From assembly GCF_016900775.1 (NCBI RefSeq), contig NZ_JACJKN010000017.1, positions 1-56,287 of the forward strand: DNA of 56,287 nucleotides. Reading direction: 5' to 3'. This DNA is from Olsenella uli (GTDB taxonomy: Bacteria > Actinomycetota > Coriobacteriia > Coriobacteriales > Atopobiaceae). Positions 2,714 to 56,287 of this stretch are shown in pieces (the first letter of the stretch is position 1; each line of letters begins with the position of its first letter). The notes under the pieces are model-generated. The model was given only the letters and a program-made list of their open reading frames with translations. It did not search any database and was not told the origin of the DNA. A program made the position numbers and the translations under genes.

Positions 2714-2725
2714 GTCCTTCTCGCC
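2714..2725 (+). repeat. Intergenic 12-mer GTCCTTCTCGCC
   Basis: This is one exact copy of the dispersed motif GTYCTTCTCGCC, found between murC and murG. It stands alone here, upstream of the 61-bp hairpin repeats. Confidence 0.8.
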
Positions 2726-2740
2726 CTGCCGGGACGAGGC

Positions 2741-2890
2741 GCGGGGCGTTCGCGACGTTCTGCGGCGCGGGACTGTCGCCGCGGCCCCGCGCGGCGGGCG
2801 TGCGGGGCGTTCGCGACGATTTACGGGGCAGAAACGTCGCGGCGGCCCCGCACAGAAACCCTGCGGGGCGTTCGCGACGTTTCACGGGGC
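2741..2890. repeat. Tandem 61-bp hairpin repeats, murG-murC gap
   Basis: GCGGGGCGTTCGCGACG occurs at 2741, 2802 and 2863, an exact 61-base period. In the first two units it is followed by a near-complementary arm ending in GGCCCCGC (for example CGTCGCGGCGGCCCCGC), so each full unit can fold into a long GC-rich hairpin. The third unit keeps only the left arm before the murG stop. The 306-base murG-murC gap (2591-2896) holds no credible gene. An mRNA-stabilising or attenuating structure, or an expanded intergenic repeat, are both possible. Confidence 0.85.
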
Positions 2891-2896
2891 GCGGCC

Positions 2897-4024
2897 TCAC
2901 GCGCGGGCGGCGGCCTCCACCTGGTCGGCGAGCGCGGCGGCGGCGCGGGCCTGCCCGAGCCCACGGGCGGCGGCGCGCATGGCGTCGCGGCGGGCCGGGT
3001 CGTCCACGAGCCCCAGGAGCTCGTCGGCAAAGACGGGCTCGTCGATGCGGGAGTCGGCGAGAAGGACGGCGGCGCCGGCGTCCACGAGGAAGCGCGCGTT
3101 GGTGGTCTGGTGGTCGGCCGTGGCGTGCGGGTAGGGCACGAGCAGGCTCGGCACGGCGAGCGCGGCGATCTCCGCGATCGAGGAGGCGCCGGCGCGCGAA
3201 AGCACGAGGTCGGCCGCGGCGAGCGCCTGCCCCATGTTGGAGATGTAGGGCATCACGCGCCAGCGCAGCTGCTCGGCGGGCGTGAGCGCGAGGGCCGCGA
3301 CCGTCTCGTCGAAGCCGTCGGCGCCCGTGGAGTGCACGACGACGAGCCCCTCGCGCGAGAGGAGCTCCCGCTTGAGGCGGCAGACGCCCTCGTTGATGTG
3401 GGCGGCGCCGAGCGAGCCGCCAAAGACGAGCAGCATCGTCTCGTCGGGCCCCACCCCAAAGGCGGCGCGCCCCTCCGCGCGGCTCGCGCTGACCACGCTC
3501 CTGCGCACGGGGTTGCCGGTGAGCACCACGGCGGGCGGGCGCCCCCCCTCGCGCTCGAAGACCGCGCGCGCGGCCGGCACCGAGATGCACACGCTCGCCG
3601 CGTGCGGGGCGAGCGCCTTGTTGGCAAGGCCCGGCACCGAGTTCTGCTCGTGCAGCACGTAGGGGACGCCCAGGCGGTGGCAGCAGGTGAGCAGGGCCAT
3701 CTCCACGTAGGCGCCAAAGCCCACGGCCACGTCCGGCGCGCCCTCCTCCGAGAAGCGCCGCGCGATCTTGGACTGCGCACGCCGCATGCGCCAGAGCGAG
3801 CTCGCGAGCGTCCAGGGGCGCGCGCGGTCGAAGCCCGAGACCACCACGGGCACGAGCTCGAAGCCCGCCTCGGGCACGAGCCGGCCCTCGAGCTTGGCCT
3901 GCTGCCCGAAGAACCTCACGTGGTGGCCGCGGTCGCGCAGCTCCTCGGCGAGCGCGAGCGCGGGGTTGATGTGGCCGGCCGTCCCGCCCGCGGCGATGGC
4001 GACCTCGAGGGTGCGCTGGGACAT
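2897..4024 (-). CDS. murG: Undecaprenyl-PP-MurNAc-pentapeptide GlcNAc transferase MurG
   Basis: MurG transfers GlcNAc from UDP-GlcNAc to lipid I, forming lipid II at the inner face of the membrane. The 375-residue GT28 protein has the N-terminal loop GGTAGHINPA, the lipid/acceptor region VGFGAYVE, HEQNSVPG, and the C-terminal donor-binding FGGSLGA and LSRAGASSIAE motifs. The ATG at 4024 has a GGAGGAG site five bases upstream. It follows ftsW after eight bases, so the two are almost certainly co-translated. Length and motifs are normal. Confidence 0.97.
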   Translation of the reverse strand: MSQRTLEVAIAAGGTAGHINPALALAEELRDRGHHVRFFGQQAKLEGRLVPEAGFELVPVVVSGFDRARPWTLASSLWRMRRAQSKIARRFSEEGAPDVAVGFGAYVEMALLTCCHRLGVPYVLHEQNSVPGLANKALAPHAASVCISVPAARAVFEREGGRPPAVVLTGNPVRRSVVSASRAEGRAAFGVGPDETMLLVFGGSLGAAHINEGVCRLKRELLSREGLVVVHSTGADGFDETVAALALTPAEQLRWRVMPYISNMGQALAAADLVLSRAGASSIAEIAALAVPSLLVPYPHATADHQTTNARFLVDAGAAVLLADSRIDEPVFADELLGLVDDPARRDAMRAAARGLGQARAAAALADQVEAAARA

Positions 4025-4032
4025 GTCTCCTC

Positions 4033-5508
4033 CTATCGTCTCCCCCTCGGGCCGCGCCGGCCGCGCAGGCGGTCCGCCGCGTCGGGCCCGAGGTCGACCC
4101 GTCTCCTGCCGCGCGCGTCGGTCGTCACCCGGCCCGCGGGGCGCTCCGCCCGGCGTCCGGCGCCCCGGCCCCGCGCGCCGCCGTCCATGACCGTGAGCCT
4201 CGGCCCCGCCCCGGGCGCCGCGGCGCGCTCCGAGCGCGGGCGCGGCTCCCCCACGAGCGAGAGCCCCGGTCCGCCGGCCGCGCCGTCCTCGACCTGCCAC
4301 GAGCGGCGCGCGCCGTCGTGGGCGGTCTCGGGCAGGTGCGAGTGGACGGAGACCGAGACGATCATGCCCACGAGCATGAGGCTCGCGATGACCGAGGAGC
4401 CGCCGTACGAGACGAGCGGGATCGGCTTTCCCGAGAGCGGGAAGATGCCGATGACGCCCGCCACGTTGAGCAGCATCTGAATCACGAGGATCGTGGTGCA
4501 GCCCGCCGCGATGAGCCGCCCCGCGAGGTCGGGGGCGTGCCGCGCGATCTGATAGCCCGCCCAGCCGAGCGCCGCGAAGCCCGCGAGCAGCCCGAGCGTG
4601 CCGAGAAGCCCGCACTCCTCGCCGATGACGGCGAAGATGAAGTCGTTGTGCGCCATGGGGAGGTAGGAGTACTTCTGCTTGGAAAAGCCAATCCCCACCC
4701 CGAAGAGCCCGCCCGTGCCGAAGGCGTAGAAGCCCTGGAGCAGCTGGTAGCCGTCCCCGAAGGGGTCCGACTCGGGGTTGAGCATCGTGAGCAGGCGCTG
4801 GCGCGAGTAGTCGTCCTTGAGCGAGAGGCCGAGGAAGGCGAGCAGGCCCAGGGCGAGAAAGCCGAGCAGGATGCGCTTGGGAACGCCGGCGAGGTAGCCC
4901 ATCGTGACGATGGTGATGCCGATGACCATCGTGGAGCCCTTGTCCGGCTGCAGGATGATGAGCACGACGGGAAGCCCCACGCCGATGCCCATGAGCTTGA
5001 CGAACTCGCCCCAGCCGAGCGTGCCCTCCTCGAAGTAGCGCTGCGCGAGGCTCGCCGCCACGAGCACGACGGAGATCTTCGCGAACTCCGAGGGCTGGAG
5101 CTGGAAGCCGCCGATGGCGATCCAGCGCGTGGCGCCGTAGGCGTCGCCGGCCGTGATGAAGACGAGCAGGAGCAGGCCTATCGTCACGGCCCAGATGAGG
5201 TTGATGAGCCGGTCGCTCCAGAAGTGGTAGTCCACCCGGGCGAGAAAGACCGCGAGCGCCACGCCCACCGCGCCGAAGAGCAGCTGGCGCTTGAGGTAGT
5301 AGGCCGCGTCCCCGAAGTCGGCGAGCGCCGTGACCGAGGAGGCGGAGTAGACCATGAGCAGGCCGAAGGCCAAGATCACGGCCGTGACGGCGATGAAGAC
5401 GAGCCGTGGCCGCATGAAGCGCTCGGGGACGCCGAAGAGGCCCTGCGCGCCGCCGCGTGCGCGCCCCTGCGCGCGCGGGGCCGGCGCGGGGCGCGCCCAG
5501 GCGGCCAC
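4033..5508 (-). CDS. ftsW: Septal peptidoglycan polymerase FtsW (SEDS)
   Basis: This SEDS-family glycosyltransferase polymerises lipid II at the septum with a class B PBP. About ten hydrophobic segments are visible, along with family signatures RWIAIGGFQLQPSEFAKI, the extracellular PESDPFGDGYQLLQ loop and SYGGSSVIASL near the C-terminus. The GTG start at 5508 lies one base after the murD stop, with an AGGGGGG site inside the end of murD. About 35 polar residues precede the first helix. A long Arg/Gly/Ala-rich tail of about 85 residues follows the last helix and looks disordered and cytoplasmic. An internal ATG near the first helix is a less likely start. Confidence 0.93.
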   Translation of the reverse strand: MAAWARPAPAPRAQGRARGGAQGLFGVPERFMRPRLVFIAVTAVILAFGLLMVYSASSVTALADFGDAAYYLKRQLLFGAVGVALAVFLARVDYHFWSDRLINLIWAVTIGLLLLVFITAGDAYGATRWIAIGGFQLQPSEFAKISVVLVAASLAQRYFEEGTLGWGEFVKLMGIGVGLPVVLIILQPDKGSTMVIGITIVTMGYLAGVPKRILLGFLALGLLAFLGLSLKDDYSRQRLLTMLNPESDPFGDGYQLLQGFYAFGTGGLFGVGIGFSKQKYSYLPMAHNDFIFAVIGEECGLLGTLGLLAGFAALGWAGYQIARHAPDLAGRLIAAGCTTILVIQMLLNVAGVIGIFPLSGKPIPLVSYGGSSVIASLMLVGMIVSVSVHSHLPETAHDGARRSWQVEDGAAGGPGLSLVGEPRPRSERAAAPGAGPRLTVMDGGARGRGAGRRAERPAGRVTTDARGRRRVDLGPDAADRLRGRRGPRGRR

Positions 5509-5509
5509 G

Positions 5510-6931
5510 CTAGGCCCCCCTCTCGCCGAGCTCGGCCACGAGCCGCTTGAAGAGGCGGCCGCGCTCGGCCATGTTGGAGAACTCGTCGAAGGACGAGCAG
5601 GCGGGCGAGAGCAGCACGACGTCGCCCGGGCGGGCGAGCCGGGCGGCCTCGGCGAAGGCCTCGCGCAGGTGCGGCGCGGAGACGACCTCGAGGCCGGCCC
5701 CGTCCTTCTCGCCGTCCTTCGCGCCCTCGAGGGCGCAGGCGATCCTGGGGCCCGCCTCGCCGAAGCAGACGGCCGCGCGGCACCGCCCACGCACCGCGGC
5801 GGCGAGCGAGGAGAGGTCGGTCATCTTGTCGTGGCCGCCGAGCAGCAGCACCACCGAGCCGGGAGAAAAGCCCGTGAGCGCCTTCTCGACGGCGTCGGTG
5901 TTGGTGGCCTTGGAGTCGTTGACGTAGCGCACCCCGGCGACGGTGCCCGCGGGCTCCAGCCGGTGCTCGATCGGCGAGAAGGACCTGAGCCCGCGGGCCA
6001 CGTCGGCGGCGGAGACGCCGAGCTCGAGCGCGACGGCCGAGGCGGCAAGCGCGTTCTCGGCGTTGTGCAGGCCAACGATCTTGAGGTCCGCCGCGCGGCA
6101 GAGCGCGCGCTCGGCGCCGTCGAGGCGCACCACGAGCTCGCCCGCGCGCAGGAAGGCGGCGCAGGGGCCGGCGGGCTCCTCGTGCACGGAGAGCCGGCAG
6201 ACGCGCAGGCCGCGCCCCTCCAGGCGCGCGGCCGCGGCGCGGCAGAGGGCGTCGTCGACGGAGACCACCGCGAGGTCGCCCGCGCCGAGGTTGGCGAAGG
6301 CGCGCTCCTTGGCGGCGGCGTAGGCCTCCATCGTGTGGTGCCACTCGAGGTGGTCGGGCGTAATGTTGAGCAGCACCGCGACGCGCGGGTGCAAAAGGCG
6401 CGTCGTGGCGAGCTGGAAGCTCGAGAGCTCGGCCACGAACCAGCCGCCCTCGGGCCGCGCGGGGAGGGCCTCGGTGGGCGGCGTGCCGATGTTGCCCACC
6501 GCCTCGGCGGGCAGACCCGCCTCGCCGAGCAGGTGCGCGGCGAGCGAGGTGGTGGTCGTCTTGCCGTTGGTGCCCGTGATGGCGACCCACCGCTCGGGGC
6601 TCTCGCGCCAGGCGAGCTCGGGCTCGCCCACGACCTCGGCTGCGCACGCGGCGGCGGAGCGGAAGAAGGCGGAGTCGACGGGGATGCCGGGCGACGCCAC
6701 GACGAGGTCGTAGCGGCCGGTCACCTCCTCGGTCCCGAGGACGCAGCGCACGCCGGCGCCCTCGAGCGCGCGCGTGCGCTCCCCCTCCGCGGACGCGGCG
6801 CCGCCGAAGAGCGTCACCGAGCGGGCGCGGAGCGGAACGAGCGACGCGAGGTAGCGGGCGGCGGACTCGCCGGTGCGGCCGAGCCCGAGCACGGCGACGT
6901 CGCCGAGATATGCCTGAGCGGTGGAACCCAT
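5510..6931 (-). CDS. murD: UDP-N-acetylmuramoylalanine--D-glutamate ligase MurD
   Basis: MurD adds D-glutamate to UDP-MurNAc-L-Ala. The 473-residue protein has the Rossmann-like LGLGRTGESAARYL N-terminus, the P-loop GTNGKTTT at 120-127, the ELSSFQL metal/ligand segment, NITPDHLEWH, and the C-terminal NDSKATNTDA and LLGGHDK motifs that distinguish MurD from its paralogues. The ATG at 6931 is used; the GGGGATGAG upstream can serve as ribosome site. It lies 13 bases after mraY in the same operon. A short charged insert (DGEKDG) is unremarkable. Confidence 0.97.
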   Translation of the reverse strand: MGSTAQAYLGDVAVLGLGRTGESAARYLASLVPLRARSVTLFGGAASAEGERTRALEGAGVRCVLGTEEVTGRYDLVVASPGIPVDSAFFRSAAACAAEVVGEPELAWRESPERWVAITGTNGKTTTTSLAAHLLGEAGLPAEAVGNIGTPPTEALPARPEGGWFVAELSSFQLATTRLLHPRVAVLLNITPDHLEWHHTMEAYAAAKERAFANLGAGDLAVVSVDDALCRAAAARLEGRGLRVCRLSVHEEPAGPCAAFLRAGELVVRLDGAERALCRAADLKIVGLHNAENALAASAVALELGVSAADVARGLRSFSPIEHRLEPAGTVAGVRYVNDSKATNTDAVEKALTGFSPGSVVLLLGGHDKMTDLSSLAAAVRGRCRAAVCFGEAGPRIACALEGAKDGEKDGAGLEVVSAPHLREAFAEAARLARPGDVVLLSPACSSFDEFSNMAERGRLFKRLVAELGERGA

Positions 6932-6944
6932 ATGAGCTCATCCC

Positions 6945-7976
6945 CTAGCCGAGCTGGAAGTACAGGGCAAAACCGAGGGCGGCGAAGGCCGCCGAGACGA
7001 TCCAGAAGCGGATGACGACCTTGTTCTCGGCCCACCCCATCTGCTCGAAGTGGTGGTGGATCGGCGTCATCAGGAAGACCCGGCGGCCGGTGAGCTTGAA
7101 GCTCGTGACCTGGATCATGACGGAGAGCGCCTCGCAGACGAACAGGCCCCCCATGATGAGCGAGGTGACCTCGGTCTTGGTGAGGACGGCGAGCGAGGCG
7201 AGCGCCGCGCCCAGGGCGAGCGAGCCGGTGTCCCCCATGAAGATGGAGGCGGGGTAGCAGTTGTGCCAGAGGAAGCCCACGCAGGCGCCCGCGATGGCGC
7301 CTGCGAAGATGGCGAGGTCGAGCTCGTTGTAGCGGTAGGCGGCCATCGCCATGAAGAGCATGACCACCATCGTGCAGCCGCCGGCGAGGCCGTCGAGGCC
7401 GTCGGTGAGGTTGACGGCGTTGGAGAGGCCCGCCATGAGCAGGAACACGAAGACGAGGTAGAGCCAGGGCACCGTCACCTCGGCGCCGCCCACGGGAAGC
7501 GTGGTGGAGAGGACGCCCAGGTCGAGCGAGAGGCCGCCCGGGAAGCGGACCTCCGGCGCGATGCCGCAGACGTTGACCGCCACGAGGCAAAACGCCACCG
7601 AGATGACGACGAGCCCCGCCATCTTCTGGGAGGGCGTGAGGCCGAGCGAGCGGCCGTGGGCCACCGACTCGATGTCGTCGAGCAGGCCGAGCGAGCCCGT
7701 GACGAGCGTCACCACGACGGCGAGCACGAGCGCCGGGGTCCACTGGGCGACGAGCCCGCAGGCGACGAGCACGCCCACGAGGATGATGATGCCGCCCATC
7801 GTGGGGGTGCCCTGCTTCACGAGGTGGCGCTGCGGGCCGTCGGCGCGGATCTGCTGGCCCACCCCCTCGTGGCGCATGAGTCGGATGAAGAGCGGCATGA
7901 GCGCGCAGGTCACCAGAGCCGCGATGCCGATGGCGAGAAATACCTGGTAGGTGGGATAGGCGGGATTTCCTATCAC
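6945..7976 (-). CDS. mraY: Phospho-MurNAc-pentapeptide transferase MraY
   Basis: MraY is the integral membrane enzyme that attaches phospho-MurNAc-pentapeptide to undecaprenyl phosphate, giving lipid I. The 343-residue protein has about ten membrane helices and the family motifs LLDDIESV with the catalytic aspartates, NLTDGLDGLAGG, MGDTGSLALG, and PIHHHFEQMGW near the C-terminus. The GTG start overlaps the murF stop by four bases (GTGA), the same coupling arrangement seen for murC/murB. No in-frame ATG gives a sensible N-terminus. Confidence 0.96.
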   Translation of the reverse strand: MIGNPAYPTYQVFLAIGIAALVTCALMPLFIRLMRHEGVGQQIRADGPQRHLVKQGTPTMGGIIILVGVLVACGLVAQWTPALVLAVVVTLVTGSLGLLDDIESVAHGRSLGLTPSQKMAGLVVISVAFCLVAVNVCGIAPEVRFPGGLSLDLGVLSTTLPVGGAEVTVPWLYLVFVFLLMAGLSNAVNLTDGLDGLAGGCTMVVMLFMAMAAYRYNELDLAIFAGAIAGACVGFLWHNCYPASIFMGDTGSLALGAALASLAVLTKTEVTSLIMGGLFVCEALSVMIQVTSFKLTGRRVFLMTPIHHHFEQMGWAENKVVIRFWIVSAAFAALGFALYFQLG

Positions 7977-9412: not shown

Positions 9413-9455
9413 CTGCACTCCCTTGCGTACGTTCGGGGCGGCCCCCGCCACCATT

Positions 9456-11240: not shown

Positions 11241-11251
11241 GTCAAGACAGT

Positions 11252-11770: not shown

Positions 11771-11826
11771 CGTCGTCCTTCTCGTGAGCGGCTGGTGCCG
11801 CGCCTTACGTTCATGGCAGGTACGCT

Positions 11827-12981: not shown

Positions 12982-12984
12982 CCC

Positions 12985-13856: not shown

Positions 13857-13930
13857 CCCCGGCCCGCCGTCCTTCTCGCCCCGCGACTTTTACGCAGCGA
13901 GGAGCGGGCGAGAAGGGCGGCGGGCCGGGG
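13857..13930. repeat. 25-bp inverted repeat 3' of xerD built on TTCTCGCC motif
   Basis: The left arm 13857-13881 begins CCCCGGCCCGCCG and ends CCTTCTCGCCC. The right arm 13906-13930 is its reverse complement with one mismatch. The loop is 24 bases. The arms contain the dispersed 12-mer. It lies 15 bases beyond the xerD stop, so it could cap or terminate the pyrG-xerD transcript, though no U-run follows on the minus strand. Confidence 0.85.
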
Positions 13931-22961: not shown

Positions 22962-22973
22962 GGCGAGAAGAAC
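22962..22973 (-). repeat. Intergenic 12-mer GTTCTTCTCGCC
   Basis: This is an exact minus-strand copy of the dispersed motif, located 12 bases before the start codon at 22986. Confidence 0.8.
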
Positions 22974-26140: not shown

Positions 26141-26333
26141 GTTGCGGAATCGGGGGTCGTGGCAGCCTCGCCGCCGGCAGCGTTGCGGAATCTGGGGTCG
26201 AGGCAGCATTCGTCCTGCCACGACCCCAGATTCCGCAACGGGACGAGAAGAACGCCCAGTTGAGTCCAAACCGCAGCTGCCACAACCCCCAACGCGACAA
26301 CGCCACGGACGCGGGAACTGCCACGACCCCCGG
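26141..26333. repeat. Cluster of GTTGCGGAATC-type palindromic repeats
   Basis: A 25-base unit beginning GTTGCGGAATCKGGGGTCG and ending GGCAG occurs directly at 26141-26165 and 26182-26206, and inverted at 26215-26239 with one mismatch, giving a strong hairpin with an eight-base loop. More degenerate inverted copies start near 26277 and 26318. The cluster lies between the LTA synthase-like gene and tRNA-Val, whose converging transcripts may end here. No gene seen in 26125-26380. Confidence 0.88.
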
Positions 26334-32307: not shown

Positions 32308-32340
32308 CCGTTCTTCTCGCCGCGGTGGCGAGAAGAACGG
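32308..32340. repeat. Perfect 14-bp inverted pair of the TTCTTCTCGCC motif
   Basis: CCGTTCTTCTCGCC (32308-32321) and GGCGAGAAGAACGG (32327-32340) are perfect inverted repeats with a five-base loop. This is the clearest paired instance of the dispersed 12-mer. It sits between the tRNA-Cys terminator and the tRNA-Gly promoter. Confidence 0.92.
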
Positions 32341-36056: not shown

Positions 36057-36210
36057 CCTGAGGCCGCACCTGCGGAGGGCACTCGCAAGTGCGGCCTCAG
36101 GAGCGTGCCGGCGGACGCGCTCGCAGGTTCTTCTCGCCCATGCGGCCGCACTCAACGCCTATCTGCCGCGAGTGCGCCCGCACTTGCGGCACGCACTCGC
36201 GAGTGCGGCC
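36057..36210. repeat. GC-rich palindrome cluster GCACTCGCRAGTGCGGCC
   Basis: The gene-free stretch 35941-36291 is dominated by palindromes. CCTGAGGCCGCAC (36057-36069) pairs with GTGCGGCCTCAGG (36089-36101), and the 18-base GCACTCGCRAGTGCGGCC occurs at 36079-36096 and 36193-36210. Partial inverted copies (GCGGCCGCACTC, GAGTGCGCCCGCAC) lie between. One exact dispersed 12-mer is at 36127-36138. Confidence 0.85.
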
Positions 36211-36291: not shown

Positions 36292-36543
36292 CTAGCCGAG
36301 CGTGCCCGTGGGGAACGTGAGGGCCATCACGAGGATGCTCACGATGAAGACGGTCGCGGTGATGACCGTCAGGCGGTTGAGGTTCTTCTCGAGGACGCCC
36401 GAGCCGGTCCCGGAGTTGTAGAGCGAGGAGGCGATCATATCAGAGACGCCCGTGCCCTTGCCCGAGTGCATGAGGACGAGGATGACGGTGAGGGCTCCGG
36501 AGAGGAAGAGCAGGACGGTCAGGATGATGTTGAGCGGGTTCAC
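36292..36543 (-). CDS. secG: Preprotein translocase subunit SecG
   Basis: This 83-residue protein has two membrane helices (about 3-23 and 57-77) joined by a loop with MHSGKGTGVSDMIASSLYNSG and VLEKNLNRLT, the conserved SecG pattern. SecG is an accessory SecYEG subunit that aids translocation. The GTG start has AAGGAG five bases upstream. It lies just past the gap-pgk-tpiA terminator and has its own terminator. Confidence 0.93.
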   Translation of the reverse strand: MNPLNIILTVLLFLSGALTVILVLMHSGKGTGVSDMIASSLYNSGTGSGVLEKNLNRLTVITATVFIVSILVMALTFPTGTLG

Positions 36544-36617: not shown

Positions 36618-36648
36618 AGACTCCACATCTGTCGAGAAGAACGTGGCG

Positions 36649-40853: not shown

Positions 40854-41780
40854 CTAGCCCGTCCTCACGTTGGCGAGCGCCAGGTCGCGGTGCGAGAGCG
40901 TCACGTGGTAGCCGCCGTGCTCGAGGTAGGCCGCCGTGGCGCCGGCTATGGCGACGCTGCGGTGCTGCCCGCCCGTACAGCCCACGGCGATGGAGAGGTG
41001 GCTCTTGCCCTCGGCCACGTAGCCGGGCATCGCCACGTCGAGCAGGCGGTACCACGCCTCGAGGAAGCGCTCGGTGGTGGGGTTGCCGAGCACGAAGTCC
41101 CTGACGAGCCGGTCGTTGCCCGTGAGGGTGCGCATCTCCGGGTCGTAGAAGGGGTTCGGCAGGAAGCGCACGTCGATCATGAGGTCGGCCTCGACGGGCA
41201 TGCCGTGCTTGAAGCCAAAGGAGAAGACCGAGACCTCCATGAGCTGCTGGTCGGTGAGCTCGGAGAAGGCGCGGCGCAGGCGGGCGCGGAGCTCCTTGGT
41301 GGACGTGCGGCTCGTGTCGATCACGAGGTCGGCCGCCTCGCGCACGGCGGCGAGCTGCGTGCGCTCGCGCGCGATCGCGCTCGCCACGGTCTCGCCGGGG
41401 CCGGCGAGCGGGTGGCGGCGGCGGTTCTCGTCGTAGCGGCGCATGAGGACGTCGTCGTCGGTGTCGAGGAAGACGACCTTGCAGGAGATCTCGTGGTCGC
41501 GCAGCTGCGTGAGCGAGTCGCTGATCTCGTCGAAGAGGCCCTGGCTGCGCAGGTCGCAGGTGACGGCGAGGTGGCGGCCCACGCCCGAGTTGATGCCCAC
41601 GAGCTCCGCGAGCTGCAAAAGCAGGCGCGGGGGCAGGTTGTCGATGCAGAAGTAGCCCATGTCCTCGAAGACGTGCAGGGCCTGCGTGCGGCCCGAGCCG
41701 CTCATCCCCGTGATCACCACGACGTCGGGCACGCGGTCGCGCCCCTCGGCCGCGCGCATCTGCTGGCCGCTCGCACCCAT
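40854..41780 (-). CDS. rapZ: RNase adapter RapZ (YvcJ-type P-loop protein)
   Basis: This 308-residue protein has Walker A GMSGSGRT (25-32), FEDMGYFCIDNLPPRLL, FLDTDDDVLMRRYDENRRRHPL, and the C-terminal FGFKHGMPVEADLMIDVRFLPNPFY and AVGCTGGQHRSVAIA segments typical of RapZ/YvcJ. In E. coli RapZ guides RNase E to a small RNA controlling amino-sugar synthesis; the Gram-positive role is less clear. The ATG at 41780 follows GGAGGGGAG. The usual uvrC neighbour is not upstream; a PTS cluster is. Confidence 0.94.
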   Translation of the reverse strand: MGASGQQMRAAEGRDRVPDVVVITGMSGSGRTQALHVFEDMGYFCIDNLPPRLLLQLAELVGINSGVGRHLAVTCDLRSQGLFDEISDSLTQLRDHEISCKVVFLDTDDDVLMRRYDENRRRHPLAGPGETVASAIARERTQLAAVREAADLVIDTSRTSTKELRARLRRAFSELTDQQLMEVSVFSFGFKHGMPVEADLMIDVRFLPNPFYDPEMRTLTGNDRLVRDFVLGNPTTERFLEAWYRLLDVAMPGYVAEGKSHLSIAVGCTGGQHRSVAIAGATAAYLEHGGYHVTLSHRDLALANVRTG

Positions 41781-41808
41781 GGCACTCCCCTCCTCGAGGT
41801 CCTTCTCG

Positions 41809-41885
41809 CCGTCCCTCTCGCCAGTATACGGCAGCGGGCTCGGACCGCCGCGCGGCACGCCCGGGCAGGACGAGGCGAGAAGAAC
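41809..41885. repeat. Opposed 12-mer pair upstream of rapZ
   Basis: GTCCTTCTCGCC (41809-41820, plus) and GGCGAGAAGAAC (41874-41885, minus copy) flank the rapZ promoter area. A TATACT -10-like hexamer for rapZ lies at 41829-41824 without a recognisable -35. Confidence 0.7.
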
Positions 41886-43988: not shown

Positions 43989-44146
43989 GTCCCGTCCTTT
44001 CTTCACGTGCTTCCATCACTTTTTTCCGTTGTTCCAAGGCGGCCGCGGGCCGCCCGATGGGCGAGGCGTCGCGCCCGCGCGCGTTCTCGGGCCACCTGGC
44101 CACGAGGCCTGCGCCAGGCGAGAAGAACGCGGCGCGTCGCTGGAAG

Positions 44147-44251
44147 CCCCCGGGCCCGGCGAGAAGGACCTCGCCGCGAGTTCTGCAGCCGCGCGCCCTC
44201 CGCGCGGCGAAGCTGTCTGAGCGCCGAGGTCCTTCTCGCCGGGCCCGGGGG
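44147..44251. repeat. Perfect 27-bp inverted repeat containing the 12-mer
   Basis: Arms 44147-44173 and 44225-44251 are perfect reverse complements; the left begins CCCCCGGGCCCGGCGAGAAG and the right ends CTCGCCGGGCCCGGGGG. The loop is 51 bases. Each arm contains an exact GTCCTTCTCGCC copy, and a third copy lies at 44117-44128. It lies in the 270-base gap between fruK and fruA, so it could limit read-through or end the fruK message. Confidence 0.95.
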
Positions 44252-47181: not shown

Positions 47182-47420
47182 GGCGAGAAGGACGCGCAAT
47201 CTCGGATATCCGGACATCTGCGGTTACGCGTGACAAACTTGAAACTGCCCGATGCGCAAGCCCGAAAAAGGGGCCAGATTGGCGGCAAACCCCAAGCTGC
47301 GCGTTCTCGCGTGGATGCGGAATCGGGAGTTTGCGGACATCGCGGACTGCGCATGCGATCCTCGCGCGGCGCGACCGACGACTCGGCGGCAGGCCCAGAT
47401 GCCCGCATGGCGAGAAGAAC
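47182..47420. repeat. Repeat-rich gap between nanE and Gfo/Idh gene
   Basis: This part of the 517-base gap (46994-47510) has no gene. It holds two exact dispersed 12-mers (47182-47193, 47409-47420) and two imperfect 29-base direct repeats (47194-47222 and 47317-47345) sharing GCGNAATCNSGG and GCGGACATC- or CCGGACATC-type ends. Confidence 0.65.
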
Positions 47421-47453
47421 GGGGACGCCAGGGCGGGGACGCCGACAGAGAAA

Positions 47454-47481
47454 GCGGGCCCCGGACGAGTCCGGGGCCCGC
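47454..47481 (-). terminator. nanE operon terminator
   Basis: GCGGGCCCCGGA (47454-47465) and TCCGGGGCCCGC (47470-47481) form a perfect 12-bp stem with a four-base loop. Minus-strand TTTCTCTG follows. It lies 30 bases past the nanE stop. Confidence 0.88.
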
Positions 47482-47510
47482 GTCAACCCGGGGCGATGGG
47501 GCTCTCTCCC

Positions 47511-48197
47511 CTACTCGATCGCGGCGCGGAACCAGCTGGTGAGCGATGTGGGGTGCGTGATGCCGGTGCCTACGACGACGGCCCAGGCGCCCGCGTCGAT
47601 GGCGGTCCTGGCGTCGGCCGGGGTGTGGACGTGGCCCTCGCAGATGATCGGGTAGTCGGGGAACTCCGCGGTGGCCTGCCTGAGCAGCGGCACGTCGGGG
47701 CCGTCCTCGAGCGTGGTGTCGATGGCGGCCTTGTTGTGGGAGAGCGTGGTGGACACGAGGTCGCAGCCGCAGGCCACGCCGCGGCGGATGTCCTCGATGG
47801 TCATGCAGTCGGCCATGATGAGGACGTCGCTCTGGGCGCGGATGGCCTCGACCGTCTCCTCGAAGGTGCGGCCGTCCGGGCGCGGGCGGTCGGTGGCGTC
47901 GAGGGCCACCACGTCGGCGCCGGCGTGCACACAGGCCAGGGCGTGGCGCAGCGTGGGCGTGATGTAGACGCCCTCGTGGCCCTCCTTCCACAGGCCGATG
48001 ACGGGGATCTCCACGCGGCCCTTGATGGCGGCGATGTCGGAGAGGCCCTGGCAGCGGATGGCCGCCGCGCCGCCGAGCTCGCAGGCGCGGGCCATCTGGG
48101 CCATGGTCTCGGGGTGGCGCAGCGGCTCGCCGGGATAGGCCTGGACGGAGACGACGAGCTTCCCCCTGAGGGACTGGACGAGCGGTGAGATGGGCAT
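47511..48197 (-). CDS. nanE: N-acetylmannosamine-6-phosphate 2-epimerase NanE
   Basis: NanE converts ManNAc-6-phosphate to GlcNAc-6-phosphate in sialic acid breakdown. The 228-residue barrel has LRGKLVVSVQAYPGEPL, GAAAIRCQG, VIGLWKEG with a conserved Lys, ADVVALDATDRPRP, LIMADCMT, and VVVGTGITHPTSLTSWF, a full match to the family. The ATG at 48197 has AGGGAGG six bases upstream. It is the third nan gene, separated from the ROK kinase by a 99-base palindrome. Confidence 0.95.
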   Translation of the reverse strand: MPISPLVQSLRGKLVVSVQAYPGEPLRHPETMAQMARACELGGAAAIRCQGLSDIAAIKGRVEIPVIGLWKEGHEGVYITPTLRHALACVHAGADVVALDATDRPRPDGRTFEETVEAIRAQSDVLIMADCMTIEDIRRGVACGCDLVSTTLSHNKAAIDTTLEDGPDVPLLRQATAEFPDYPIICEGHVHTPADARTAIDAGAWAVVVGTGITHPTSLTSWFRAAIE

Positions 48198-48214
48198 GGC
48201 ATCCTCCCTTCCGA

Positions 48215-48313
48215 GAAAACCTGACAAAGGTGACAGGGCAGTTTGTCAGGTTTTGTGCAACGGTCGCGGCGGGAAAACCTGACAAACTGCCCTGTCACCT
48301 TTGTCAGGTTTTC
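48215..48313. repeat. Perfect 40-bp nested inverted repeat between nanK and nanE
   Basis: Arms 48215-48254 and 48274-48313 are perfect reverse complements around a 19-base loop; the left begins GAAAACCTGACAAAGGTGAC. Each arm is itself a smaller palindrome (AAAACCTGACAAA and TTTGTCAGGTTTT), so cruciform or alternative hairpins are possible. It belongs to the same family as 16640 and 17701. Placed inside the nan operon, it may tune nanE expression. Confidence 0.95.
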
Positions 48314-48320
48314 CGCGGGG

Positions 48321-49280: not shown

Positions 49281-49291
49281 GGCTCTCCCCC

Positions 49292-50218: not shown

Positions 50219-50326
50219 GCTGGTCCTTTCTTGTGTGGGGCGGGACGCTCCGCCCCGTGCGGGACAGGGGGCTCAGATGCTAGGGCAGAAGCGGCGAGAG
50301 GAACGCGCCACTCGCCGATTCGCAAA

Positions 50327-50352
50327 GCGGGCGCGCCCGAAGGCGCGCCCGC
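50327..50352 (-). terminator. Transporter-operon terminator with TTCG tetraloop
   Basis: GCGGGCGCGCC (50327-50337) and GGCGCGCCCGC (50342-50352) form an 11-bp stem. On the minus strand the loop is TTCG and TTTGCG follows. It separates the ABC transporter from nanA. Confidence 0.88.
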
Positions 50353-50368
50353 CGCAGGGCCTTGGGGA

Positions 50369-51193: not shown

Positions 51194-53215
51194 CTACCTC
51201 ACCTCCAGTCGAGAGACGAGACCGTTCTTCGCGAGCTCCTCGTCCGGGATCTCCGATACGAGGTGATGGTCGGCGCCGGGAACGGGCTTGAGGATGGGAT
51301 GGACGTCGAGGCCGACCGTGGGGTGGCTCGAGCGCGGGGCGAAGCGGTCGCCCTTGGGGAAGTCCGCGGGGCTCGGGACGGAGCCGGGAACCTGGTGCAG
51401 GCGGCTGCCGTCGTGCGCCTCGATCGAGAGGACGGCGCCGAGCAGGCCCTGCGTGTACTCGTGGATCGGGTTGGTGAGGAGCTCCTTGGTGGGGGCGGAC
51501 TCGATGACCTGGCCGGCGTACATGACCGTGATCTCGGAGGCGACCTCGGCCACGAGCGCGAGGTCGTGGGACACGAAGATCATGGCGAAGCCGAGCTGCT
51601 TCTGGAGGTCGTTCAGCAGCTTGATGACCTGCTTCTGGACCGTGACGTCGAGCGCCGTGGTGGGCTCGTCGCAGATGACGAGCGAGGGGTTCCTCGTGAG
51701 GGCCATGGCGATGATGACGCGCTGGCACTGGCCGCCGGAAAGCTCGTGCGGGTAGCTCTCGAGCGTGCGCTTGGGGTCGAGGCCGACGAGCTCGAGGAGC
51801 TCCTCGGCGCTGCGGGTGCCGCCGCGGCTCGTGAGCTGCTTCATCTGGGCGGAGATGAGCATCGACGGGTTGAGCGAGGACAGGGAGTCCTGGTAGACCA
51901 TCGCAAGCTCGTGGCCCAGCAGCTTGCGGTGCTCCTCCTTGGAGAGCTTGAGCAGGTCCTTGCCCTTGTAGAGGATCTGGCCCTGGATGCGGGCGCTGTC
52001 GGGCAGGAGGTTCATGATGGTCTTGGTGGTGATGGACTTGCCGCAGCCGGACTCGCCGACGAGAGCCATGCACTGGCCCGGGCGCACGTCGAAGGAGACG
52101 TTGTCCACCACATGGACGTCACCGTGGCGCGGGAACCCGATCGAGAGGTTCTTGACCTGGAGGATCGGCTCCACGGAGTAGTCGGGGACGCGGCGGTCGG
52201 TGCGCGCGAGCTCGACCTCGCGGAGCGCCCCGAGACGGCGGGCGAGGGAGTCGGCCTGCTCCTTGTAGGCGCGAACCGGATCGGCGACGAGGAGGTCGGC
52301 CTCGCGGCGGCTCTCGGCGTTCTCGTTGCTCACGGGCGCGGACGGGGCGGCGGCCATCGCATCGGTCAGGCCCTCGGAGAGGATGTTGAGGGCGAGGCAC
52401 GTGACCATGATCGCGATGCCCGGGAAGAGCGCCTGCCACCAGCGGCCAAGCAGGACGCCGTCACGCGCGGACGAGAGGATGTTGCCCCACGTGGGCGTGG
52501 GCTCGGCGATGCCGGCGCCGATGAAGGTGAGCGACGCCTCGAAGATGATGGCGTCGGCGACGAGCGTGACCGTGAAGACCATGATCGGCGCGATGCAGTT
52601 GCGCAGGACGTGCCTCATGAGAATCCACGGGGCGCGGGCTCCGGAGACGATGACCGCGCGGACGTAGTCCTCGCCGTACTCGGACACCACGTTGGCGCGG
52701 ACAATGCGCGCGATCTGCGGCGTGTACATGAAGCCGATGGAGAAGATGATGGCCGGGACGGAGTTGCCCAGGATGAGCACCAGGATGGCGGCGAGCGCGA
52801 TGCCGGGAATCGACATGATGACGTCGAGCACGCGCATGATGACCTCTGAGACCGCCTTGCGCGCGACGGCGGCGACGGCGCCGATGATCGAGCCGAGGAC
52901 GAGCGCGAACAGCGTCGCGCCAAAGCCGATCACGAGCGAGTACTGGCCGCCGTAGAGCATGCGGGAGAGGATGTCGCGTCCGGTGTTGTCCGTGCCGAAG
53001 ACGTGCTCCGCCGAGGGCGGCTGGTAGGCCATGCCGATCTCGAGCGGGTCATGCGGGGCGATGACCGGCGCCAGGATGGCGGAGAGCGCGACCAGTATGA
53101 GGAGGACGAGAGAGATCTTGCTCGAGATGCTCATCTTCTTGAGGCCGCCGAGCTTGAGGCCCTTGGAGGCGGCGCTCTCGAGCTTCTCGGTCTGCTTTTC
53201 CCTGATCTTAGTCAT
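51194..53215 (-). CDS. ABC permease-ATPase fusion (SatC/DppC-DppD type)
   Basis: This 673-residue protein joins a DppC/OppC-like permease and a DppD/OppD-like ATPase. Residues about 30-285 hold six helices with GTDNTGRDILSRMLYG and the EAA loop VRAVIVSGARAPWILMRHVL. An acidic/Arg linker runs to about 345. The ATPase has GESGCGKS near 387-394, LSGGQCQRVIIAMAL, VICDEPTTALD, and a DppD-type C-terminal extension with a QGLLGAVLS segment. The fusion fixes one permease and one ATPase in equal numbers. The same domain order is reported for SatC of the Haemophilus ducreyi sialic acid transporter (from memory). Confidence 0.92.
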   Translation of the reverse strand: MTKIREKQTEKLESAASKGLKLGGLKKMSISSKISLVLLILVALSAILAPVIAPHDPLEIGMAYQPPSAEHVFGTDNTGRDILSRMLYGGQYSLVIGFGATLFALVLGSIIGAVAAVARKAVSEVIMRVLDVIMSIPGIALAAILVLILGNSVPAIIFSIGFMYTPQIARIVRANVVSEYGEDYVRAVIVSGARAPWILMRHVLRNCIAPIMVFTVTLVADAIIFEASLTFIGAGIAEPTPTWGNILSSARDGVLLGRWWQALFPGIAIMVTCLALNILSEGLTDAMAAAPSAPVSNENAESRREADLLVADPVRAYKEQADSLARRLGALREVELARTDRRVPDYSVEPILQVKNLSIGFPRHGDVHVVDNVSFDVRPGQCMALVGESGCGKSITTKTIMNLLPDSARIQGQILYKGKDLLKLSKEEHRKLLGHELAMVYQDSLSSLNPSMLISAQMKQLTSRGGTRSAEELLELVGLDPKRTLESYPHELSGGQCQRVIIAMALTRNPSLVICDEPTTALDVTVQKQVIKLLNDLQKQLGFAMIFVSHDLALVAEVASEITVMYAGQVIESAPTKELLTNPIHEYTQGLLGAVLSIEAHDGSRLHQVPGSVPSPADFPKGDRFAPRSSHPTVGLDVHPILKPVPGADHHLVSEIPDEELAKNGLVSRLEVR

Positions 53216-53220
53216 GTGGC

Positions 53221-54186
53221 CTACACCGTCCTAATGCGCGGGTTGATCAGCAGGTAGAGCATGTCAACCACGATGTTGATGATGACGAAGGCCAGAGCCA
53301 CGACCACGACGACGCCCTGAACGAGCATGATCTCGCCGCCGGTGATGCCCTGCTGGATGAGCGTGCCCATGCCGGGGAGCGCGAAGATGACCTCGATGAC
53401 CACGGCGCCGCCCATGAGGTAGCCGATCTTGAGGCCGAGCGTGGTGATCGGGGTGATGAGCGCGTTGCGCAGCACGTTCTTCGCGATGACCACGTTCTCG
53501 GGGATGCCGCTGCCGCGGGCCGTCTGAACATAGTCCTTGTCGAGCTCCTCGACCATCGCGGTGCGCACGATGCGCGTCATCTGGCCGATGACCGGGAACG
53601 CCAGCGCGATGGCGGGCATGATCATGCGGCCGAAGTAGCCGGCGGGGTTGGCGAAGAGGTCGGGAAGCGCGCCCGAGGACGGGAAGACGCGCGTGAGGCC
53701 GCCCAGCGTGACCGCGAGGATGAGCAGGACCGCAAGCCAGAAGGACGGCGTCGCGATTCCTGCGATGGATATCACTCGTATCACCTGGTCCGGCCACTTG
53801 TCCCTATAGAGCGCCGAAACGACGCCAAGCGTGAACGAGAAGATCGCAGCGAGAAGCAGGCCGAAGAACGTGAGCTGCATCGTGATGGGCAGCGCCGAGG
53901 CGATGGCCGTGGCCACCGGGGTCTGGCGGCTGCCGTAGGTGCCGAGGTCACCCTGGCAGAGGCCGGCGATGTAGTCCACGTAGCGGACGGGCCACGGGTC
54001 GTTCATTCCATGCTCGTCCATGTACTCCTCGACGGCCTCCGGAGACGCGCCCTCGCCGAGGACGGTGCGCGCCGGGATGGAGGGGTCGGTGAAGGACATG
54101 AGGAAGAACACGAGCAGGGTGACGCCCAGGGCCATGATCGGCAGCGCGATGAGGCGCCGACCGATGAGGCGCAGAAGGTTGTTCAT
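53221..54186 (-). CDS. Dpp/Opp-type ABC permease (SatB-like)
   Basis: This 321-residue inner-membrane permease has the N-terminal LIGRRLIALPIMALGVTLLVFFLMSFTDP (shown in part: MALGVTLLVFFLM), DLGTYGSRQTPVATAI, about six helices, and the EAA loop YVQTARGSGIPENVVIAKNVLRNAL in pieces (ARGSGIPENVV), typical of DppB. It pairs with the permease half of the fusion protein to make the channel. It starts 115 bases after the binding-protein gene across a strong hairpin. Confidence 0.94.
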   Translation of the reverse strand: MNNLLRLIGRRLIALPIMALGVTLLVFFLMSFTDPSIPARTVLGEGASPEAVEEYMDEHGMNDPWPVRYVDYIAGLCQGDLGTYGSRQTPVATAIASALPITMQLTFFGLLLAAIFSFTLGVVSALYRDKWPDQVIRVISIAGIATPSFWLAVLLILAVTLGGLTRVFPSSGALPDLFANPAGYFGRMIMPAIALAFPVIGQMTRIVRTAMVEELDKDYVQTARGSGIPENVVIAKNVLRNALITPITTLGLKIGYLMGGAVVIEVIFALPGMGTLIQQGITGGEIMLVQGVVVVVALAFVIINIVVDMLYLLINPRIRTV

Positions 54187-54218
54187 ACCCTCTCCTCTCT
54201 CTATGCCTTTGGTGAGCA

Positions 54219-54252
54219 GAGGGGCCCGAGCTCATCCGCGCCCGGGCCCCTC
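54219..54252 (-). terminator. Hairpin between binding protein and permease genes
   Basis: GAGGGGCCCG (54219-54228) and CGGGCCCCTC (54243-54252) form a ten-bp stem with a 14-base loop. No U-run follows, so it more likely stabilises or partly attenuates the message, keeping the binding protein in excess. Confidence 0.75.
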
Positions 54253-54303
54253 GAACGTCCTTATGCCCCCCACCCTTCCGTGGGGAGAGGCCTTCGGAAG
54301 AGG

Positions 54304-55914
54304 CTACGCGCTCACGGTCTTGCAGCCGATGAAGTTCATGCCCGTGGTGCCGATGCCCTCGAAGCCCTCGATGGCGATGCCGCTGGGGCTGGTGGCGGCG
54401 TCGGCCCAGGACGCGGTCACGGTCTGGACGTGGATGAGCGGGTACAGGACGCAGTTGTCGGCGATGAGGTCGTAGACCTGCTTCCAGGTGGCCTGCTGCT
54501 CGTCGCCGGACTGGCCGAGGGCCGCGGTCATGAGCTCGCGAATCTGGGCGAACTCAGCGGAGGAGCCCCAGCCGGTGCGGGTCTGCTGCCAGACGTTGTC
54601 GCCGTACCACCAGTTGAGGAGCAGGTCGGGGTCGGCGCCCCAGCAGGACGGGTCGCCGGGGGCGATCAGGATGTCGAAGTTGTCGGAGCCCCCGTCGATG
54701 GCCGCGTAGGTGGCCGCCGAGGTGTCGGTGGTGACGGTGGCGTTGAAGCCGAGGGCGGCGAGGTCCTGCTGGGCCTGGATGCCCATCTGCTCGGCCTGCG
54801 TGTTGTCCGTCGTGCGGATCACGAGGTCGCCCGGCGTCACGCCGGCGTCGCTCAGCATGCTCTTGGCCTTCTCCTGGTCGTAGGTGTAGACCGTCGCGGC
54901 CTCCTGGTAGTTGGGGAAGTCGACCGGGATGTAGGACGAGGCCGCTGCGGCGAGGCCGCTGAAGATGTTCTCGATCATCTGGTCGGTGTTGAGGGCGTAC
55001 ATGATGGCCTGACGGGCGGCCTTGTTGTCCCACGGCGCCTTCGTGGTGTTGAACATGATGAAGCGGGTGCCGAAGCCCTGGACCTTGTCGACCTTGCAGC
55101 CCGCGGACTCGATCATGTCGATGGCGTCGGCGGTGACGGACTCCATGACGAGCGTGGTCCCCTGCTGCTGGGCGGTCATGCGCGCGGTGGCGTCGACGAG
55201 GATATCGTAGTGCAGGCCGGCGTCCTCGGCGGGATAGGAGCCGTTGTAGTTGGGGTTCGGGACGAGGTCGACGGTGTTGTCCGTGATGGCGTCATACATC
55301 CAGGGGCCGGAGCCGACGGGCTGGCTCGAGAGCTCGTCGTCGGTGGTGCCGGCGGGGAAGACGCGGACGAGCGCCAGGCGCTCCTTGAGCAGCGAGAAGT
55401 TGGCGATGGCCGTGGTCACGGTGATGGTGGTGTCATCGGTGGCCTCGAGCGCGTCGATCGGGGCGAGGAATGCGGAGTAGGTGGCGTCGGCCTTGGTGCG
55501 GTCGAAGGACTCGACGATGTCGGCGGTGGTCACGGGGTTGCCGTTGGAGAACGCGGCGCCCTCGCGGACGGTGATGGTGAAGTGGGTCTCGTCGACCTGC
55601 TCCGGGTCGCCGGTGGCGAGCTCGGGGAAGGTGGAGTAGTCGTGCGGGTCGGTGCCGTAGAGGCCCTCGAGGACGTGCCAGTTGGAGCCCAGGCAGAAGG
55701 CCGAGGAGGTCTTCGTGGGGTTGTACTCGGAGGGCGCGTACGCGGAGCCCGCGGAGATGGTGTTGCCGCCGGTGGCGGAGGCATCGCCCTGGGTGTCATC
55801 GGGCGTGGTGGTGTCCCCGCCGCCGCTGCAGGCCGCCAGGCCGAGAGCGCCGGCCGCCGCCGCCCCGCCGAGGAACGTGCGACGCGACACGGCGCTGTTC
55901 ATGAGCTTCTTCAT
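54304..55914 (-). CDS. Dpp/Opp-family substrate-binding lipoprotein (SatA-like)
   Basis: This 536-residue extracellular binding protein of the peptide/nickel SBP family has a signal with twin arginines (SRRTFLGGAAAAGALGLAAC) and a lipobox ending at Cys about 29, suggesting Tat export and lipid anchoring. A Gly/Thr/Asp linker follows. Conserved SBP_bac_5 features include HWHVLEGLY-like NWHVLEGLYGTDP, FSNGNPVTTADIVESFDRT, PVGSGPW and ADIVAR-type blocks such as AARQAIMYALNTDQMI. The ATG at 55914 has AGGGAG six bases upstream. It leads the transporter operon. Confidence 0.92.
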   Translation of the reverse strand: MKKLMNSAVSRRTFLGGAAAAGALGLAACSGGGDTTTPDDTQGDASATGGNTISAGSAYAPSEYNPTKTSSAFCLGSNWHVLEGLYGTDPHDYSTFPELATGDPEQVDETHFTITVREGAAFSNGNPVTTADIVESFDRTKADATYSAFLAPIDALEATDDTTITVTTAIANFSLLKERLALVRVFPAGTTDDELSSQPVGSGPWMYDAITDNTVDLVPNPNYNGSYPAEDAGLHYDILVDATARMTAQQQGTTLVMESVTADAIDMIESAGCKVDKVQGFGTRFIMFNTTKAPWDNKAARQAIMYALNTDQMIENIFSGLAAAASSYIPVDFPNYQEAATVYTYDQEKAKSMLSDAGVTPGDLVIRTTDNTQAEQMGIQAQQDLAALGFNATVTTDTSAATYAAIDGGSDNFDILIAPGDPSCWGADPDLLLNWWYGDNVWQQTRTGWGSSAEFAQIRELMTAALGQSGDEQQATWKQVYDLIADNCVLYPLIHVQTVTASWADAATSPSGIAIEGFEGIGTTGMNFIGCKTVSA

Positions 55915-56287
55915 GTTCTCTCCCTTTCCTCCTGCGGCCGCCCCGTCTTGGGCAGCCGTCCCTTTGCCTTTCAACACTACGAAATGCGGGCGTAATCTTC
56001 CTGAAGCAAACGGCCGACGGTGCGTTTTGATACCCCAGACGGTAATCCTTCCGTAAGCTTATTGTGTATTGGTATTCTGGTTGGACCCTATTTCGCTTCT
56101 GTTTTCTATGCGATAAGATCCAATCAACTTCAAACAAATAGCTGGTGAATCAATTATTTCGACCTGATTCATGAATGACAGCCAAAGGTTCTTCTCGCCA
56201 ACTGGCATCACAATGTAGAACCACTTGTATCATGCGCGAAGCGGTATCGATTCCATATCATATGCGCGCCACCGCCCGCCCCCACCC
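55915..56287. other. AT-rich upstream region of the transporter operon
   Basis: No gene is visible in 373 bases. On the minus strand GGAAGGATTACCG (from 56041-56057) and AGGAAGATTACGC (from 55991-56006) are near-direct repeats 50 bases apart, a possible operator pair. TGAATCA (56146-56152) and TGATTCA (56165-56171) are inverted. An exact 12-mer GTTCTTCTCGCC is at 56188-56199. Base composition is far lower in GC than the rest of the window. Confidence 0.6.

Follow-up and report, generated by a model that had tools for sequence, protein, structure and literature searches.

The window analysed here, a stretch of 56,287 nucleotides from Olsenella uli (contig NZ_JACJKN010000017.1), carries 17 exact copies of the 12-mer GTYCTTCTCGCC. 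When one mismatch is allowed, the number of sites rises to 39, against a mean of 1.18 and a maximum of 6 in 100 dinucleotide shuffles, which confirms and strengthens the excess over chance proposed in an initial annotation of this DNA. That annotation had listed 14 exact copies, all of them intergenic; 14 copies do lie outside the predicted genes, but three more are found inside them. The first, at 3056..3067 (-), belongs to a murG-like gene (2897-4024, -), where it reads in sense and in frame 0 and encodes VLLA. The other two fall in a murD-like gene (5510-6931, -), both gene identities coming from Pfam: the copy at 5702..5713 (+) is antisense in frame 0 (GEKD), is directly followed by a one-mismatch tandem copy at 5714 and shows one mismatch in the genome G022, and the copy at 5973..5984 (-) is sense, in frame 2 and exact in G022.

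The sites of the window were projected onto other genomes, among them G012 (27 kb), which was used only for this projection (20 kb of it) and for one dialect comparison. An exact GTCCTTCTCGCC occurs between genes at 2714..2725 (+), followed by an intergenic copy at 13869..13880 (+) with a one-mismatch inverted partner, whose start is 13907 and not 13906 as first given, and by another intergenic one at 22962..22973 (-), of which G022 keeps the GTCC form. Between tRNA genes, which with five members are the only gathering-level Rfam matches of the window, two copies separated by 5 bp make an inverted pair: the left arm (32310..32321, +) is kept in its GTCC form by both G022 and G012, and the right arm (32327..32338, -) is kept in this form by G012 and broken in G022. 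The intergenic copy at 36127..36138 (+), located 3′ of a secG-like gene (36292-36543, -), is kept as GTCC in G012 and has two mismatches in G022. The copy previously placed at 41809 is really an exact intergenic one at 41799..41810 (+) with a tandem copy at 41811 that has one mismatch; the former lies upstream of a rapZ-like gene (40854-41780, -) at a distance of 18 bp and is kept by both G022 and G012. Intergenic copies follow at 41874..41885 (-; GTCC form in G012, departing from the motif at one position in G022), 44117..44128 (-; exact in both G022 and G001, with one or two mismatches in four further genomes), 44158..44169 (-; one mismatch in G022 and G001), 44229..44240 (+; exact in G022) and 47182..47193 (-; kept as GTTC in G022 and as GTCC in G012). 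The copy at 47409..47420 (-) is exact in G022 and G012 and occupies an intergenic position 3′ of a nanE-like gene (47511-48197, -), and the last one, at 56188..56199 (+), is exact in G022 and was taken as intergenic because no predicted gene of the window lies beyond it. Two variants carry a single mismatch, GTTCTTCTCGAC at 36631..36642 (-) and GTTCTTCTCGTC at 26242..26253 (-), the latter being the position onto which an exact copy of G022 projects; a supposed variant at 11775 has two.

The whole genome (G000; 2,475,799 bp) holds 657 copies of GTYCTTCTCGCC and 2 of the reversed word. As was claimed for the window, both strands are used, with 310 forward and 347 reverse copies. Relatives were counted as well: 30 of the 31 genomes of the same genus, which appears to be Thermophilibacter, contain 227-855 copies, and the remaining one (G026) only 40, though both comEC and cpaF are present in it. 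Among 29 relatives outside the genus the motif, whose core can be written as G-N-N-CTTCTCG-N-C, is rare; G137 (39.8 kb) is too small for judgement and L117 (982 bp of G022) was left out. With the above corrections the initial observation is real, and we regard it as partly confirmed.

The relation of the motif to genes was followed in a 453-kb sample of G000 with 117 copies, of which 62 lie between genes, at a density of 0.96 per kb, and 55 in coding sequence, at 0.14 per kb. The proposed intergenic bias therefore stands as a matter of density, but not as a matter of exclusion, since about half of the sampled copies reside in genes. The initial annotation had reasoned that copies equally common within genes would point to chance or codon bias; by density they are not, even if coding copies are many. 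Within genes, 27 copies are sense and 28 antisense, and most (47/55) keep to one frame. Sense copies in frame 0 number 23, whereas a synonymous shuffle yields 0.74, an excess of about 30-fold. The encoded peptides are inflated too: VLLA is found 40 times, whereas its 11 permutations reach 10-27, and GEK[ND] 25 times, with 0-11 for 23 permutations. With a relaxed motif the intergenic copies amount to 76 versus 0.13 expected, and an excess of sense and intergenic copies is seen again in G022, G019, G029, G007, G079 and G107, but not in G032 and G036. By inspection, the gene quintiles (13, 13, 8, 8 and 13 copies) show no clear bias towards gene ends. No copies at all occur in a 19-kb stretch whose ribosomal-protein genes were recognised by eye, and low-GC genes are poorer in them, to which base composition may contribute; both observations accord with what excerpts of PMC7811141 say about constrained genes and acquired DNA. 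The presence of both orientations in genes, the sense excess over the codon null and the inflated VLLA and GEK(N/D) peptides indicate, taken together, a force acting on a double-stranded DNA word, at work both within and between genes as in DUS and USS systems.

The recognition of DNA by means of a self-tag is known mainly from two Gram-negative families. We propose that GTYCTTCTCGCC is probably a DNA uptake sequence, that is, a self-tag favoured by the machinery of natural transformation. Copy number, strand symmetry, DNA-level coding excess, turnover by point mutation and lineage dialects make this the best supported reading, in line with the lead idea of the initial annotation, whose interpretation as a whole is partly supported. 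Conservation between related species, which the initial annotation had proposed to examine, adds to this: among aligned intergenic copies 14/24 are conserved versus 4.9 expected from flank-matched 12-mers. The effect is weaker in coding copies (14/34 versus 9.0), which counts against the proposal. The motif found here is short, non-palindromic and hundreds of times more frequent than by chance, as is characteristic of DUS and USS. In the suggested mechanism, cells would become competent and their surface receptor for DNA, possibly ComEA or a minor pilin of the Tad type, would prefer the motif; biased uptake followed by recombination would then let it accumulate wherever tolerated, as a case of molecular drive. 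The competence genes that were to be expected are found: judged by its gene content, G000 carries comEA, comEC and a Tad/Flp pilus locus, which holds the only T2SSE gene found. Still, comEC is present in 58 of 60 relatives and so is cpaF, and both counts include 27 of the 29 motif-poor ones outside the genus, so that the motif cannot be predicted from the machinery. A comparison of carriers and non-carriers, covering the Tad proteins from 7 genomes and ComEA from 8, showed no receptor feature specific to carriers.

Among the alternatives, the one that survives best is a genome-wide site for a chromosome-organising or nucleoid-associated protein, kept by selection for spacing or compaction and with dialects that follow the drift of a DNA-binding domain. 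Any sequence-specific reader of double-stranded DNA would fit a pattern that is symmetric, conserved, leaning to intergenic DNA, set at the DNA level and split into dialects. However, we know of no protein of the nucleoid-associated kind that has 12-bp sites by the hundreds and affects codon and peptide usage through them. The range of counts among 30 congeners, down to the low number of G026, also argues against such a role, as does the spacing on C1, which is not regular but random-like (coefficient of variation about 1). We consider this explanation rather unlikely, if the strongest competitor.

A polar signal for recombination or segregation, similar to Chi or KOPS, would likewise explain hundreds of copies, many of them within genes, and among the G079 copies listed, those of the exact word change strand in the course of the contig. 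This switch may be due to gene orientation, since the coding copies of G079 are mostly antisense (27 versus 13 with the relaxed motif, a lean shared by G107). In G000, on the other hand, forward and reverse copies are similarly frequent and sense equals antisense in genes, and no link to GC skew is visible by eye in C1 or in a 360-kb stretch of G022. The motif is thus polarised neither with replication nor with transcription in G000 and this part of G022, as in DUS and USS and contrary to Chi or KOPS. A strong intergenic preference is, moreover, not typical of Chi sites, and we find this alternative improbable.

Transcription terminators, RNA-processing or RNA-binding signals deserve equally little credence. 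In their favour, five inverted pairs between genes, with arms no more than 20 bp apart, fold as stable hairpins, and divergent gaps are poorer in copies (0.55 per kb) than the others (0.88-1.22 per kb). These pairs account for only 10 of the 62 intergenic sites, so that the hairpins, initially described as frequent, were overrated, and the other 52 lie outside tight pairs. None of the five pairs is followed by a clear T run, which leaves the idea of uptake sequences doubling as terminators weak. Neither is there a strand preference relative to transcription (8/9 in ++ gaps, 10/13 in -- gaps), and the abundance of copies within genes also speaks against such signals.

Remnants of a mobile repeat, either REP-like or derived from insertions, are still harder to reconcile with the data, even though the copies are many and dispersed and other palindromic repeats exist in the same genome, some adjoining the motif. 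Coding copies are mostly confined to a single frame, and of the 57 aligned sites 50 have no gap, although 7 do, which indicates a turnover mostly by substitution. Gain and loss by point mutation rather than by insertion is the behaviour of DUS and USS, whereas the palindromic unit and insertion-type gain of REP/BIME elements are lacking. The unit is non-palindromic, its flanks have almost no consensus except for a C or G preceding the motif, and IMG/VR yielded no inverted pair of it; the suggestion of fragments from an old mobile repeat is contradicted by these data. Codon bias or chance, finally, can be practically dismissed, as it is refuted for the bulk of the sites by the sense and intergenic excess, but codon usage largely explains the antisense coding part in G000, G029 and G107. 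The antisense copies (GGC GAG AAG RAC) use preferred codons, 17/24 in frame 0 are expected, and their excess after codon shuffling is modest in G000 (53 versus 31.9), while in G107 it stays within the range of the shuffles (15 versus 11.9, maximum 16).

Read as an uptake sequence, the motif can be compared with known systems. As depicted in excerpts of PMC3630211, the DUS of Neisseriaceae are also many copies of a short non-palindromic word in genes and gaps, with some inverted pairs, lineage dialects of a shared core and competence genes. They differ in sequence, their core being CTG and not CTTCTCG, and belong to bacteria with a type IV pilus and ComP, whereas here we deal with Gram-positive actinobacteria with a Tad/Flp pilus, few tight inverted pairs and a presumed uptake. 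The USS of Pasteurellaceae, according to excerpts of PMC7811141 and PMC2346458, likewise evolve by point mutation, are sparse in constrained genes and can be dominated by one orientation in reading frames, as in G079 and G107; their sequence is unrelated, and the present motif lacks an AT-rich flank, has equal orientations in the genes of G000 and shows no clear gene-end bias. A further parallel is the Flp/Tad-dependent transformation of Micrococcus luteus, described in parts of PMC4322843 and PMC6370729, an actinobacterium with comEA, comEC and tad genes, the latter being required for transformation (PMC4322843). That species has two tad clusters, against one tad ATPase gene found here, and the main text of PMC4322843 does not use the term “uptake sequence”.

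A 2020 paper (PMC7811141) attributes strong uptake preferences to species from two families, the Pasteurellaceae and the Neisseriaceae. In open-licence PMC texts, the broadest search of which was weak, we know of no prior report of uptake sequences in Olsenella, coriobacteria or Actinobacteria. On balance we lean to the view that this is a third, independently evolved system, in Gram-positive Actinomycetota, where Atopobiaceae would discriminate self DNA in Tad-pilus-driven transformation through a CTTCTCG-cored 12-13-mer, with genus-separating dialects and a reshaped codon and peptide usage. If true, such a signature in Gram-positive gut bacteria would mean that uptake guided by self-tags evolves repeatedly, also where another pilus is used and an outer membrane is missing. 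These anaerobes would likely be transformable with motif-bearing DNA, and the system would allow one to test directly if uptake bias by itself drives such motifs.

The dialects, in turn, could serve as a handle on gene flow among gut species. In samples of 100-400 kb, G026, G034, G032 and G036 showed no comparable dispersed, unstructured word of their own. Related genera, as in DUS and USS systems, use dialects of the shared core: position 13 is mostly C in three g46 genomes (A/C counts of 46/569, 37/325 and 48/329) and mostly A in five g35 genomes (65/10, 94/25, 92/30, 85/26 and 73/17).

The 12-mer GTYCTTCTCGCC occurs in 17 exact copies in the window, and 39 places match it with at most one mismatch, against a mean of 1.18 and a maximum of 6 in 100 dinucleotide shuffles. 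The 14 copies listed in the initial annotation stand as the intergenic set, save for one slipped coordinate (41799, not 41809), but its statement that all copies lie between genes overlooked three further exact copies within genes. Across the complete genome (G000; 2,475,799 bp, 66 contigs) the word was found 310 times in the forward and 347 times in the reverse orientation, versus 2 copies of its own reversed sequence.

Gene calls for 453 kb of this genome, made with our own codon-model caller and not a published tool, place 62 of 117 copies in intergenic DNA (0.96 per kb) and 55 in coding sequences (0.14 per kb). The strand of the copies showed no correspondence with that of the neighbouring genes in these 453 kb, and their density is lower in divergent gaps (0.55 per kb) than in convergent ones (1.2 per kb). 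Coding copies comprise 27 sense and 28 antisense examples, among which 23 and 24, respectively, lie in frame 0 and encode VLLA (sense) or GEK(N/D) (antisense). After shuffling synonymous codons 100 times, 18.2 coding copies were expected for the 55 observed (shuffle maximum 24), with 0.74 expected for the 23 sense frame-0 copies and 17.1 for the 24 antisense ones. The peptide VLLA itself appears 40 times and its 11 permutations 10–27 times each, while GEK[ND] appears 25 times and 23 other permutations 0–11 times each. Since VLLA and GEK(N/D) are encoded by opposite strands of a single word, the force on the motif seems to be exerted at the level of double-stranded DNA rather than of RNA or protein. 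A motif-free stretch of contig C1 (8.7–28.0 kb) holds genes whose sequences were recognised by eye as encoding ribosomal proteins. In the quartile of genes with the lowest GC there are 0.164 copies per kb, half as many as in the two highest quartiles (0.326–0.342 per kb); base composition may contribute to the low density in low-GC genes.

Comparison with the relative G022 allowed 14 of the 17 window sites to be aligned (nine exact, four gapless with mismatches and one broken), with C/T swaps at position 3 in several of them. Along 337 kb of C1, 57 of 93 sites align to G022, 50 without gaps, 27 of these being exact. Relative to random 12-mers with matched flank identity, intergenic sites are conserved in 14 of 24 cases (4.9 expected) and coding sites in 14 of 34 (9.0 expected). 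Variants with one mismatch seldom differ at G1 or at positions 4–10 and do so most often at positions 2, 11 and 12; either C or T stands at position 3, and the base ahead of the word is almost always C or G.

Each species was represented by one genome, and the analyses based on samples used 12 to 453 kb per genome. Between 227 and 855 copies of GTYCTTCTCGCC occur in 30 of 31 same-genus genomes (our own counted), the reversed control word reaching at most 5 per genome across the 31, while 3–38 copies were found in 6 genomes from other genera of the family and 0–14 in 23 genomes from other families. A search of 84,980 species genomes with the T-form inverted pair returned 28 matching stretches, 27 of them titled Olsenella, Thermophilibacter, Atopobium, Atopobiaceae or Coriobacteriaceae. 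In the remaining one (L009), the inverted motif pair lies on a contig whose title reads “Acidimicrobiia bacterium UBA2766” and whose GC is 0.53, possibly a mislabelled or mixed assembly. A family-wide T-form count (140 genomes, 109 outside the genus) revealed smaller excesses in the genera g46 (78–180, 3 genomes), g35 (33–69, 5) and g53 (13–26, 8); among the other 93 genomes, 85 have 0–8 copies and eight have 9–30 (G075, G091, G100, G101, G110, G111, G151 and G161).

The relaxed form GTYCTTCTCGNC was counted against 60 shuffles in coding DNA and a second-order Markov expectation in intergenic DNA. Observed/expected values for sense, antisense and intergenic copies were 45/2.0, 53/31.9 and 76/0.13 in G000; 30/2.0, 33/19.1 and 27/0.12 in G022; 13/0.7, 9/3.3 and 14/0.04 in G019; 8/0.2, 14/9.3 and 21/0.03 in G029; 10/1.5, 7/1.8 and 8/0.04 in G007; 7/0.5, 6/3.6 and 3/0.10 in G026; 8/0.4, 19/1.5 and 6/0.02 in G079; and 5/0.6, 15/11.9 and 9/0.03 in G107, where the antisense excess does not go beyond codon bias in the 60 shuffles. 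Sense and antisense values were 2/0.1 and 2/1.2 in G034, 0/0.0 and 1/0.4 in G032, and 0/0.7 and 1/0.1 in G036, with no intergenic copies in these three. By these counts, G026 keeps only a residue and G034 is borderline. G026, the low same-genus genome, has comEC and cpaF, candidate DNA-uptake genes, yet only 40 copies and a weak leftover excess; it is perhaps a lineage whose motif specificity was lost.

The base just after the motif, position 13, defines A- and C-preferring dialects. All 15 exact copies in a 100-kb sample of g46 precede C, and whole-genome GTYCTTCTCGNCA/GTYCTTCTCGNCC counts are 46/569, 37/325 and 48/329 in g46, 22/183 in G101 (genus g44), 226/425 in G000, near 1 in the eight g53 genomes, 65/10, 94/25, 92/30, 85/26 and 73/17 in g35, and 50/8 and 44/8 in g36. 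With G[TC][TC]CTTCTCGNC in the samples, C follows in 38/45 copies in G107 versus 91/235 in G000 (p 2e-8), and A in 28/49 in G079 versus 51/235 (p 2e-6); for intergenic copies alone, the values are 9/12 versus 34/88 for C (p 0.03) and 7/9 versus 23/88 for A (p 0.003). Composition is not the reason for the g46 preference, because the GC of G107 (0.676) almost equals that of G000 (0.684), and it explains part of the g35 preference (G079, GC 0.525). One g54 genome, G161, carries 69 A-type and 24 C-type words, the other 17 having at most 14 and 18; a separate gain or a misplacement is possible.

Candidate uptake machinery is present in G000: contig C64 encodes comEA (SLBB and helix-hairpin-helix) followed by comEC (Competence and Lactamase_B domains), and the single T2SSE-family ATPase gene found is cpaF of a Tad/Flp pilus locus (C1:273588-282260), which also encodes two T2SSF proteins, TadE and a weak Flp1-like match under the family's cut-off. 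For Micrococcus luteus, PMC4322843 reports that transformation requires tad genes and that, besides these, no genes for a type IV pilus or for type II secretion were apparent. As comEC and cpaF are each found in 58 of 60 relatives, and in 27 of 29 outside the genus, they permit the motif and do not predict it. Most likely, a putative surface DNA receptor prefers the motif, so that DNA bearing it would enter cells more often and then recombine; chance copies would thereby spread and be retained, and accumulation would be limited where gene function suffers interference. This model of uptake bias plus recombination has been put forward for Haemophilus and Neisseria, and the same source describes uptake preference in species of two families, evolution of uptake sequences by point mutation and their scarcity in constrained genes (PMC7811141).

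Other dispersed repeats also occur. Palindromes of the form CCTGACAAAGGTG...TTTGTCA, whose arms vary in step, occur in the window (16640, 48220 and 48296) and along C1 (e.g., 71605, 93368, 132397 and 144498), with CACCTTTGTCAGG present 20 times in 453 kb; we take them to resemble REP-type hairpins. A second repeat surrounds CCTTGGTGCGAA, a 12-mer with 22 copies in 453 kb, often clustered and inverted (C1 54063, 85165, 124837, 175527, 240596 and 318194), and a third one, around GGGGTTATGGCA, has 13 copies, some adjoining GTYCTTCTCGCC (C1 108211-108274 and 112823-112948). Five sampled genomes each have their own, mostly palindromic, repeat set (G022, L132-L149; G034, L049-L053; G032, L054-L058; G079, L179-L188; G137, L194-L195), with examples such as GGGGACAGTCACTTTTGCAC, CACCTGCAAGTGACATGTCACTTGCAGGTG and TGAGACAAAGGGACTGTCCCTTTGTCTCA, as if hairpin families turned over quickly within the order.
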